Below, piece by piece: positions 21,366 to 29,206 of a stretch of 64,000 bases of DNA. The notes under the pieces are model-generated. The model was not told where the DNA came from. It made no database searches and saw only the letters and a list, made by a program, of their open reading frames with translations. The stretch's first letter is position 1. Each line of letters begins with the position of its first letter. Made by a program: the position numbers and the translations under genes. The stretch comes from an uncultured Gammaproteobacteria bacterium (lineage in GTDB: Bacteria > Pseudomonadota > Gammaproteobacteria > Pseudomonadales > Pseudohongiellaceae): assembly GCA_913060975.1 (NCBI GenBank), contig CAJXVC010000005.1, forward strand, positions 248,001 to 312,000, written 5' to 3'.

Positions 21366-22508
21366 ATGCCACCATTTGACGCCAACAGGCCCTATAACGA
21401 CTTGCCTCCACTGCCGCCCACCGCGGAGCTGGAAACCAAAGCCTGTCTCAAGGCCTGTATCGAAGCTCGCACTGCCCTGGCTGAACTCAAGCAGGCAGGG
21501 GAGCTGATCCCCAATCAGGCCATGCTGATCAATACCATTCCGCTATTGGAAGCCAAGGACAGCTCGGAAATCGAGAATATCGTTACTACTACCGACAAGC
21601 TGTTCGAGTACGCTCAAACCAACGAGAATCGAGCCGACCCAGCAACCAAAGAAGCACTGCGCTATCGCGCTGCCCTGTGGCAGGGTTTTGAATCCCTGAG
21701 CGATCGCCCACTCAGCACCAATACAGCCGTGACCATCTGCGCCACCATCAAAGGCACAGCCATGGATATTCGCCGGGTGCCAGGTACCAAGTTGAGCAAT
21801 CCAGCCACTGGAGAAGTCATCTACACTCCACCCGAAGGAGAAGCCTTGTTGCGGGACAAGCTGGCCAACTGGGAGAACTTTCTGCATCACGCTGAGGAAA
21901 TCGACCCTCTTATCCGCATGGCCGTGGCCCACTATCAATTTGAAGCCATTCATCCTTTTACCGATGGCAACGGCCGCACCGGTCGCATAATCAACTTGCT
22001 CTACTTGCTTGAACAGCAATTGCTCAGCATCCCGGTGCTTTACCTTAGCCAATACATAATTCAGCACAAAGCCGACTATTATCGGCTGCTGCGGGAAGTG
22101 ACCGAAAACCAGACCTGGGAAGCCTGGGTCCTCTACATGCTAGAAGCGGTGCAAAGCACCGCCCACTGGACACGCAAAAAAATCATGGCCATTCGCCAAC
22201 TGCAGGAACATACCATCGACTATGTGAGAAATAATCTGCCAGCCATCTATAGTCGCGAACTGGTAGAGCTGACCTTTACCCAACCTTACTGCCGCATTGC
22301 CAATCTAGTGGACGCTGGTATCGCCAAGCGCCAGACTGCCTCGGTGTACCTCAAAGAGCTGCACAACCTAGGCGTATTACAGGAGCAGCAGATGGGGCGT
22401 GACAAGTTTTTTGTCCACCCCAAGCTGCTACGACTTTTGACCCAGGATACCAATACTTTTGATCTTTACCCTGACCAAACGAATCAGTCACAACAGGAAA
22501 ATCCATGA
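21366..22508 (+). CDS. Class II Fic-domain (AMPylating) protein with C-terminal winged helix
   Basis: 380 residues. An N-terminal inhibitory helix has S66-S-E-I-E70-N71, matching the (S/T)xxxE(G/N) motif that holds Fic enzymes inactive in cis. The catalytic motif is complete: [12 protein letters not shown] at 196-207, with His196 expected as base. The C-terminal about 80 residues ([30 protein letters not shown]) look like a winged helix. Overall it resembles SoFic-type proteins, which transfer AMP from ATP to protein hydroxyls. The stop overlaps the start of the methyltransferase (ATGA), so the two are translationally coupled. This placement suggests it regulates or guards the restriction-modification genes. 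Confidence 0.9.
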
Positions 22509-25500
22509 GTAACCCGACTCAACAACTGAAGGCCAAGCAGCGCCGGGAAAAATTTGCCGACCTGCTGCGCGAGATGTTCCAGCTCAATAAGCCGGAACTG
22601 GATTTTGGCCTCTATCGCATCATGCATGCTCGCAAAGACGACATTAATCGATTCATAGAGCAAGACCTGCCTGATATTACGCAAAAGGCTTTCAGTGAAT
22701 TTGCCAGTCAGGACCAAAGCCAACTGCAAGCCGAACTGGAAAAAGCACGCAAGGCTGCCGAGGACGCTGGCTTTAATGCCGACGAATCCCCAAAGGTAAA
22801 AGAATTGGAAGGCCAACTAAAAGGTGGATTCGACCTGGCTCGGGAAGAGGGTGAGGTCTACGATGCCTTAGTCACTTTTTTCAGTCGCTATTATAGCGAA
22901 GGCGATTTCCTTTCTCACCGTGTCTACAAAGACGGCACCTATGCCATTCCCTACCAGGGTGAAGAGGTAGTGCTGCACTGGGCAAACAAAGACCAGTACT
23001 ACATCAAAAGCAGCGAAAACCTACGCGATTACAGCTTTCGTCTAAATCCAAATGCAGGTACTGGCGAAGATCCCATGCGCGTTCATTTCAAGCTGGTAGA
23101 CGCCGAGGCGGGCGCCAAAGACAACAACAAAGAGTCCGCCGATAGCAAGCGAGTGTTTGTGTTGGATAGCGAACAACCTTTTGTAGTAATAGATGGTGAG
23201 CCCGGTAATGAAGGTGAAGTTTACCCTGAATTGCAATGTCGCTTCTTCTTTCGAGCAGCAACAGAGGCAGACTGGACAGACACTGAAAAAGCCAAAGCCA
23301 CCGAAACCGCAGGCAAAAAACCACCCAGTCAGGATGCCCTTCGCGCTATCGCTGTAGAACGTTTATTGGGTGAGCATTCGGCACTCCCGGAGCCTTGGAA
23401 AGCCGCTCTTGGGAAGCCCTACCGTAAGGCCGACGGAGAACTGGCTGACTATTCCATGCTCAACGGTCAGCTTAATAACTACACCAAAAAGAATACCTTT
23501 GACTATTTTATACACAAGGACCTGGGCGGATTCCTAACCAGAGAGCTGGATTTTTATATCAAGAATGAGCTGCTGGACTGGGCGGATATTGCCTCTCTGA
23601 AAAATGATTCCGCGCGATTGGGGCCATTGCTAAGTAAGATTGAGGTAATTCGCTCCATAGGAGGAAAAATAATCAACTTTCTAGCCCAGCTGGAGAATTT
23701 TCAAAAAAAGCTGTGGTTGAAAAAGAAATTTGTTACCGAAACCAACTACTGCATCACTCTGGATCGGTTGGAAAATCAATCTGAATTGTTAACCGATGTC
23801 TTCGGCAGCGAGCATCAATTAGAGGAGTGGAAGTCGCTTTATCGGATTGACCTTGTACAGCTCGATAAAGATTTAAAATCACTGAACTTGAAAGATGTGG
23901 TGTCCAAACCTGAATACAAATACTTGGTGTTAGATACCAGGCATTTCGATGAGGCTTTTAAGCTAAGATTGATATCAGGAATTGAAGCCCTGGAAAAGGA
24001 ATGTGATGGGCTTCTAATTAACTCTGAAAATTTCCAGGCTCTATCTCTTATTAGGGAAAAATTTAAAAGCAGTATAGATGTCGTTTATATTGATCCACCT
24101 TACAACACCGAATACTCAAAGATTGCATATAAAAATAACTTTGAGCATTCGAGTTGGCTTTCCTTATTGGCAAATACTCTTCCGACTGTAAGGAGTCTTT
24201 TCTCAGAAGACTTCTCTTTTGGTGTGGCTATTGATGACTATGAGTTTGTTAACCTTGCTCAGTTACTAGACAGCTCTTTCCCAGAACTAGATCGATCTAC
24301 GATCGTGGTAAATCATCATCCGCAAGGATCTGGTGGTAGGTTATCTCGGACCCATGAATACTATATTCTAATGAGTGACGATGGATTACCTATTTTCAAA
24401 GGTGAGCCTTTAGAAGATGGCATAGAGGAGCGAAACTTTATGCGGAGTGGTAGAGGCGAAAATAATTGGAGGGAGTATCGCTGGAATAGCTTTTACGCTC
24501 TTTTATTCGACGAAGACAAAAATAAAGTAATTGGAGCAGAAGATCCTATTCCCTTAGGGGAAAGCTACCCTACTGGAAAAACCGAAGAAGGCTATAGTCG
24601 AATTTACCCAATTAACAGCCGGGGAGAAGAGCGGGTTTGGAGATCATCGTATAAAACAGGTAGAAAGCGTGCGGAAAGTGGTGAGTTAGTCGTAAGTCAG
24701 GCTGGTACGGTGTATCAAGTTATTCAGCACCAGAGCCGCAGGGAAACGTTATTCAGTAACTGGACTTCGCCCGAATTCAATGCAGGGACTCAGGGTACAG
24801 CCGTGCTCGATGCCATGGGACTTGGGGGTATTTTTGATTACCCAAAGTCTATAAAAACCATAGAGAAAGGCATATGGGCTCAGTCATTCGGATATGATAA
24901 CGCGACAATTCTTGATTATTTTGGGGGATCAGGAACGACTGCTCATGCCACACTAAATATAAATAGGAAGTATGGTGGAAACAGAAAATATGTAATTGCT
25001 GAGATGGGCGCATACTTTGATAGTGTGTTGAAGCCCCGTATACAAAAAGCGTCCTACAGCGAAAGCTGGATAAATGGGGCTCCTAAAGCCCTGGAAACAG
25101 GGATGTCTCAGTTTTTTAAGTATATTCGGCTAGAAAGTTATGAAGATGCGCTTGCTAACATAGTGCTTAGTCGTAAAGCTGGCCAACAGCAGTTATTAGA
25201 TGAGCCTGGTGAGTCTGGAGTATCAAATGCACGACAAGCTTATATTATGGATTATATGCTTGAAGTCGAAACTCGCGACTCTCAATCACTATTAAGTACT
25301 ACGCAGTTTGTTGACCCAACCCATTACAAGCTCAATGTGCGCACTGCCGGCGGAGATGAAACCCGCCCGATCAATGTGGATCTGCTTGAGACTTTTAATT
25401 ACCTATTGGGGCTGACAGTCGAGTATATAGCGGCACCTATTCATTTTGATGCTGAGCTGAGCCAGGGCGAATACGGTCGTTGGCAGGCAAAGGTGAAAAA

Positions 25501-28800: not shown

Positions 28801-29206
28801 CGAGGTGTATCTGTTGCGAAATCAGACCGGGCAGGGCGCTGTTGGAGTGTTTCTGGATGGGGGATTTTACCCGGATTTCATTCTCTGGCTAGTAAAGGAT
28901 AGTCAACAGAAGATTATTTTCGTTGACCCTAAAGGCTTGCGTAACCACAAGCCCAGCGACCCCAAAGTGCAGTTTTACAAAGCTATCAAGGACATTGAAG
29001 CTGATTTGCGTGGCAACAGTAATGAGGTAACGGGTATCGAGTTGCATGCATTCTTAATTTCTGAAACTCATTCCGCACAGTTAGCGAGTCAATGGAAGGA
29101 TGAACAAGGTAATCCGGTGACTCGTGAATTGATGGAGAGTTGGAATATTTTATTCAGTGATGAAGATGACGACTACTTGGGAAAGCTCGTGATGAAAGTG
29201 GCTTAG
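25847..29206 (+). CDS. Restriction-type DEAD helicase with C-terminal PD-(D/E)xK nuclease (type III Res-like)
   Basis: 1119 residues. After a Lys/Ser-rich N-terminus ([19 protein letters not shown]) come a superfamily 2 Walker A ATGSGKT (201-207), motif II DEGH (303-306) and a later helicase half ([38 protein letters not shown]). The C-terminus has a PD-(D/E)xK nuclease core: P-D1010 followed by D1027-P-K1029. This is the architecture of type III Res subunits, which translocate on DNA and cut when the partner methyltransferase finds unmodified sites. It is the last gene of the operon and converges on the reverse transcriptase gene. Confidence 0.9.
   Translation: [1119 protein letters not shown]

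Follow-up and report, generated by a model that had tools for sequence, protein, structure and literature searches.

Within a 64,000-nucleotide stretch of an uncultured gammaproteobacterium (Pseudohongiellaceae; GenBank assembly GCA_913060975.1, contig CAJXVC010000005.1, positions 248,001 to 312,000; hereafter the window), a gene for a Fic protein of the SoFic family sits inside what is, judged by its sequence, a type III-like restriction-modification (RM) system. The conserved unit is a set of three genes, coding for an SNF2-family helicase, a methyltransferase (Mod) and a helicase-nuclease (Res); the fic gene, preceded by an operator-like array of TGTCGA half-sites, is an optional insert between SNF2 and mod. 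The explanation we favour, with a probability of roughly 60%, is that this module would act on the restriction genes as an autorepressor and on the cell as a self-inhibited toxin.

Against the NCBIfam SoFic model NF046030 (cut-off 550) the window Fic reaches 645 bits, and it also matches the PADLOC SoFic model; Pfam recognises Fic_N, Fic and SoFic-like_C domains (the last, PF21248, at 118.9 bits against a cut-off of 27), and SoFic chains in the PDB match with E values of about 1e-160. A preliminary description of the locus had proposed a candidate undescribed system. For the Fic protein itself this does not stand, because the NCBIfam score and the PADLOC match place it in a named single-gene defence system, and the PDB matches agree. 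The same description had credited the protein with a complete catalytic motif and an inhibitory helix of its own, and both are present: the inhibitory motif SSEIEN and the catalytic Fic motif are intact, which makes this a class II Fic. Both residues singled out there for a conservation check, E70 and H196, are conserved. S66, E70 and N71 are invariant in the 22 aligned SoFic rows that carry letters at these positions (two of the 24 are gapped there), and H196, D200, G201, N202, G203, R204 and R207 are invariant in all 24, as are R322, Y328 and L329 of the putative recognition helix, RQTASVYLK.

Between SNF2 and fic, six half-sites alternate in orientation with start-to-start spacings of 21-19-11-19-21; two of the six are one-base variants, and an extra TCGACA at 21215 overlaps the half-site at 21213. 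Similar, helically phased sites recur upstream of other SoFic genes. In the 300-bp upstream regions of the first 21 SoFic loci, TGTCGA occurs 85 times against 5.0 expected (maximum 12 in 300 simulations), within a half-site consensus of about AYATGTCGAT and with spacings quantised at 19, 21, 30, 40, 49, 51 and 70. It is the top-ranked hexamer upstream of SoFic genes (25/29), at least two copies being found at 25 of 29 SoFic loci and at 27 of 31 after L188 and L189 were added; among the loci so counted, L183 and L185 represent a single element in two copies. None of eight other, more distant Fic genes has two or more upstream copies, and one has a single site. L131 carries the same lattice with TGTCGC instead of TGTCGA, and the lattice of L050 becomes 21-19-11-19 once TGTCGC is allowed. 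An operator belonging to loci without Fic was considered and rejected: two sites were found in none of 81 Mod upstream regions (400 bp) and in one SNF2 upstream region (L062). A search of the window genome for other operator pairs found one besides that of fic (G000:C4:98100). There are one or two clusters of at least three TGTCGA in 120 bp in each of L034, L029, L055 and L013, and another in the window at 43992, all away from the core gaps. The array and the winged helix are both present, and SoFic may have a C-protein-like role as an RM controller, a regulator that would bind an operator before its own RM genes.

The restriction genes are of the type III kind by PADLOC, Pfam and motifs, with a beta-class N6 methyltransferase as Mod and a helicase-nuclease as Res. 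Mod matches the PADLOC model MTase_III PDLC03646 with 848 bits over residues 19-979, and the nuclease motif of Res is PD...D-P-K. About 500 extra N-terminal residues had been remarked on in the preliminary description; the extension is real but usual for the subfamily, and an oddity of this locus is ruled out by the coverage of PDLC03646 and by 31 relatives (chosen from 80 loci) that align with residues 1-510. The SNF2 gene ends 225 bp 5' of fic. The fic stop overlaps the mod start by four bases (ATGA, read as ATCCATGAGTAA), and res follows mod after 6 bases, as described earlier and at coordinates that hold. From this spacing we infer that Fic, Mod and Res would be produced jointly.

To which unit does the Fic gene belong? 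The best 80 of 578 Mod relatives confirmed from a search of genome contigs, with the window added and four near-duplicates removed, gave 77 loci. The order SNF2-Mod-Res is found in 55 of these, the remainder having one gene absent or past the contig end, so that the fic-mod-res trio first put forward as the unit gives way to SNF2-Mod-Res. Of the gaps that could be assessed, 17 of 59 between SNF2 and Mod and 22 of 71 between Mod and Res contain an insert of at least 500 bp, and 35 loci have one or more. Fic genes of three types lie within these slots in 10 of the 77 loci, and the link between Fic and restriction is therefore not peculiar to the window genome. The SoFic type is present in two, the window and L050, the latter being, among the loci compared, the one other with the exact order SNF2-SoFic-Mod-Res. 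A second class II Fic family, 64-82% identical within itself and 27-32% to SoFic, is found in six (L011, L017, L031, L042, L046 and L065), always 3' of mod, and a class I family in two (L028 and L032); in L043 and L056 a Fic gene lies close by on the opposite strand, outside the slots.

By Pfam and PADLOC the other inserts include AbiEi/AbiEii (L035), AbiD (L021), Abi_2 (L054), RhuM (PDC-S05; L015 and L061), HEC-01A/B (L023 and the Aeromonas plasmid L152), Schlafen AlbA (L036 and L079), Abi_C (L075; below cut-off in L073), AbiJ-like (L048), the YhcG nuclease (L040) and GmrSD (L059). Several have no Pfam or PADLOC match (e.g. L020, the first gene of L029, and L026), and some plasmid copies are insert-free (e.g. 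E. coli L151). Across these slots, one restriction system gains and loses many kinds of abortive-infection gene. In a FastTree phylogeny of 75 Mods, the two SoFic loci fall in separate clades; the starred branches alone force two changes for SoFic, all Fic labels need 10 changes, and these labels show no more clustering than they do when shuffled. This pattern indicates that Fic entered the restriction core repeatedly. Among 36 genomes of the same genus, three carry a Mod at 39-41% identity and none of the 36 carries a close copy. A small helix-turn-helix (HTH) gene 5' of SNF2 was rejected as a general controller, with matches in 4 of 57 upstream regions and in neither the window nor L050.

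SoFic also stands directly 5' of methyltransferase genes of another RM type. In three type I loci the next gene after fic is hsdM, at +8 (L129), +23 (L130) and +49 (L189) from the fic stop, compared with -4 to mod in the window and +11 to mod in L050. HsdM was assigned by Pfam in L189 and, in L129 and L130, by similarity to L189 (33% and 74%) together with NPPF; HsdS of L129 and L130 was assigned by Pfam. As the HsdM proteins of L130 and L189 are 74% identical, the three loci represent two lineages. In L130 and L189, hsdR takes the position 5' of fic that SNF2 has in the window. An MmeI-type gene in L172 is preceded by a stretch that has no Fic but does carry both a TGTCGA pair and the SoFic winged helix. 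Ascertainment differs among these cases, the window and L050 coming from the Mod search and L189 from relatives of the host of L130.

What could such a module do? We propose that a SoFic dimer would bind the TGTCGA array through its C-terminal winged helices and repress transcription of fic-mod-res; that translational coupling, as the ATGA overlap and the 6-base gap suggest, would keep Fic, Mod and Res in proportion; and that the protein's own inhibitory helix (E70), on the homologue literature and the residues conserved in the window, would hold SoFic nearly inactive. Infection would then relieve inhibition, repression or both, and Fic would AMPylate a host protein and arrest the cell, as published for E. 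coli SoFic. Since these slots are repeatedly entered by SoFic and by other abortive-infection genes, the insert would probably back up or guard the restriction enzyme; this is the weakest step, and that SoFic senses failure of restriction is a guess from slot sharing.

SoFic is reported to protect against phage and to be toxic, the toxicity requiring both the catalytic residues and the C-terminal domain; its trigger and target, and the restraint and switching-on of its toxicity, are called open in a 2025 structural paper (PMC12249575). DNA binding by SoFic was, in a 2023 paper, stated to await demonstration (PMC10628234). A Fic protein with an HTH domain, CccR of Yersinia pseudotuberculosis, represses its own promoter via inverted repeats 26 bp apart (PMC9755527). 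From CccR autorepression, the array and the conservation of E70 and H196 we infer that SoFic autorepresses fic-mod-res and that E70 restrains its toxicity. The putative binding and autorepression are well supported by comparison across loci; the toxin role of the window protein is argued from published homologues. The earlier suggestion of a toxin or regulator fits both the literature and the array; the release of Fic on failure of the restriction pair, proposed there too, is conjecture. If correct, SoFic may be both a switch for restriction genes and a last-resort toxin, and the conserved array offers a direct test of its DNA binding, by binding and reporter assays. More broadly, SoFic might be a controller-toxin of restriction systems, inserted as the same array-fic cassette 5' of methyltransferase genes of unrelated systems, reading a phased TGTCGA operator, setting methyltransferase dose in types I and III and killing by AMPylation when control breaks; we regard this generalisation as tentative and would wager somewhat against it.

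Several observations weigh against our explanation. The Mods nearest to that of the window (Marinobacter, 60%) are in Fic-free loci with a gap of about 100 bp at the SNF2-Mod position, so the core does not need Fic. The array as defined is missing from four of the 31 SoFic loci: L131, L180 and L181, the latter two showing no array, and L133, a 5'-truncated match. Conversely, three- or four-site lattices occur at L170, L174 and L177, where no SoFic C-terminal domain was found. The L170 lattice lies 5' of an Nmad2 gene and of SNF2, at a locus where HipA precedes Mod; that of L174 is near an ADP-ribosylglycohydrolase gene, that of L177 before an AbiEi-like gene, and a further one, at L171, beside another Fic. 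Such lattices are either evidence that the array is not strictly specific or a sign of related regulators. A 21-bp pair pattern was found in 51 of 369 genomes, beside SoFic in only eight of them; these eight are among 12 SoFic genomes (that of the window excluded), and a reversed control pattern was found in 19 genomes. Most single pairs are therefore chance occurrences; the informative feature is the array. A promoter scan yielded no more matches than shuffled sequence (12 sites against 12.7 expected), and a sigma-70-like candidate at 21215-21243, overlapping two half-sites, was for this reason not used.

Most sampled SoFic genes, moreover, lie outside restriction operons, with two of 12 inside (L129 and L130) in an unbiased sample of the class. 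One alternative is accordingly that a plain single-gene SoFic defence landed by chance in an RM operon and acts alone, with mod and res as co-transcribed passengers. The published system works with SoFic alone (PMC12249575). SoFic is present in 278 of 5426 E. coli genomes, and none of four E. coli loci viewed is within an RM operon; in L144, L145 and L148 the gene precedes, with a 4-base overlap (-4), a serine resolvase gene on rhizobial plasmids, and some others stand alone. Weighing against a chance landing are independent insertions, into the same slot of loci from two unrelated Mod clades and immediately 5' of hsdM in two distinct HsdM lineages, and the occupation of adjoining slots by other abortive-infection genes. 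We consider it unlikely, though the strongest of the alternatives.

A little less likely still is a PrrC-like guard, which overlaps the guard or back-up step of our own explanation: the assembled restriction complex would hold Fic, and a phage inhibitor of that complex would free it. PrrC inside EcoprrI is a proven case, PrrC and PARIS both being described as restriction guardians in PMC12707154. HEC-01 pairs (the best PADLOC match; AriA is weaker) and AbiE occupy the same slots, and the second class II Fic family begins at or just past the mod stop in five of its six loci. SoFic, however, has its own inhibitory helix and mostly occurs without restriction genes, and a Fic-Mod-Res complex is hypothetical. 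As varied abortive-infection genes enter the slots, the guard idea is testable across several effectors. That Fic is an addiction module harming cells that lose the locus is improbable, even though the E. coli toxin has a possible small and separate antitoxin partner, AS1, and SoFic is present on repABC plasmids, because no AS1-like antitoxin gene was identified at the window locus, which also counts against our preferred explanation, and because the inhibitory helix sits within the toxin, so that loss of the locus would not part the two.

Table 1. Features of the locus (positions in the window)
Feature	Position	Strand	Basis or remark
SNF2-family helicase, 972 aa from TTG (start uncertain), DrmD-like	18222..21140	+	Pfam SNF2-rel_dom, Helicase_C
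Putative operator-like array, six alternating half-sites	21143..21239	.	between SNF2 and fic
Half-site TGTCGA	21143	+
Half-site TCAACA	21164	-	variant
Half-site AGTCGA	21183	+	variant
Half-site TCGACA	21194	-
Half-site TGTCGA	21213	+
Half-site TCGACA	21234	-
SoFic, class II Fic AMPylase with C-terminal winged-helix domain, 380 aa	21366..22508	+	NF046030, PADLOC, Pfam, PDB
Inhibitory motif SSEIEN, residues 66-71 (S66, E70, N71)	21561..21578	+	sequence and alignment
Catalytic Fic motif, residues 196-207 (H196)	21951..21986	+	sequence and alignment
RQTASVYLK, probable recognition helix of winged-helix domain (inferred role)	22329..22355	+	alignment
Mod, beta-class N6-adenine methyltransferase with long N-terminal region, 1111 aa	22505..25840	+	PADLOC, Pfam N6_N4_Mtase
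Mod DPPY, residues 530-533	24092-24103	+	motif
Mod FGGSGTT, residues 806-812	24920-24940	+	motif
Res, SF2 helicase-nuclease, 1119 aa	25847..29206	+	PADLOC REase_III PDLC03654, 570 bits
Res Walker A	26447-26467	+	sequence
Res DEGH	26753-26764	+	sequence
Res PD	28871	+	sequence
Res DPK	28919-28936	+	sequence

The array, the place of SNF2 in the conserved unit and the standing of SoFic as a named defence family had been overlooked in the preliminary description. Convergent with res, at 29251-33021 on the reverse strand, is a gene for the DRT type 1 reverse transcriptase-nitrilase Drt1a (PADLOC, 1371 bits), which makes the locus a defence island. An HNH endonuclease gene follows at 33512-34483 (+), weakly like phosphorothioate-DNA restriction enzymes (30.5 of 180 bits), and a subclass B3 metallo-beta-lactamase-like gene (17275-18180, +; NCBIfam equivalog, 284 bits against a cut-off of 240) lies 41 bases 5' of SNF2. 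A second window Fic (38787-39422, +; 211 aa, Pfam Fic) looks, on visual comparison, like the class I inserts of L028 and L032; a small antisense open reading frame (ORF) at 39373-39561 (-) contains SNTAVETGNS, and the loci L028 and L032 each have an antisense ORF, about 55 aa long, that contains SSSAIETGE and is perhaps a convergently encoded class I antitoxin. Elsewhere, SoFic lies beside repABC on rhizobial and related plasmids (L143-L145 and L148) and, in L126, has genes for RhuM, DarT and a macro-domain protein after it in the same orientation. Phage records gave one distant Fic match and viral contigs one SoFic locus.

How does the locus compare with known systems? With SoFic as a single-gene abortive defence it shares a full-length Fic with all tested catalytic and inhibitory residues; it differs in lying within a restriction operon, apparently coupled to mod, with an operator-like array and no AS1-like antitoxin identified. 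Like type III RM systems, it has Mod and Res proteins that match PADLOC type III models, the order DPPY-then-FGGSGTT and a helicase with a PD-D-P-K nuclease, whereas its Mod of about 1100 aa with a long N-terminal region, its dedicated SNF2 gene and its cargo slots set it apart. A DrmD-like SNF2 gene adjoins an adenine methyltransferase gene as in class 1 DISARM, but the window SNF2 protein scores 657 bits against NCBIfam DrmD_b, below the cut-off of 950, and a PADLOC scan of nine genes at 11011-34483 found no drmB or drmC and a weak DrmA match to the SNF2 protein only; lacking the required drmA, drmB and drmC among these genes, the locus is not DISARM. CccR (PMC9755527) likewise joins a Fic domain to a C-terminal HTH and is autorepressed through widely spaced inverted repeats, but it is 29% identical to SoFic over 45%, uses the half-site AGATAATCAT with a 26-bp spacer and is a type VI secretion system (T6SS) effector. 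PrrC/EcoprrI and PARIS also have an abortive gene housed with a restriction system; the window enzyme is of another kind. Our literature search, which covered neither subscription papers nor preprints, found no paper on SNF2-Fic-Mod-Res or on a TGTCGA operator for SoFic. The toxin is thus known, and so is the kind of restriction system; new, within the literature searched, are the setting and the operator-like array.

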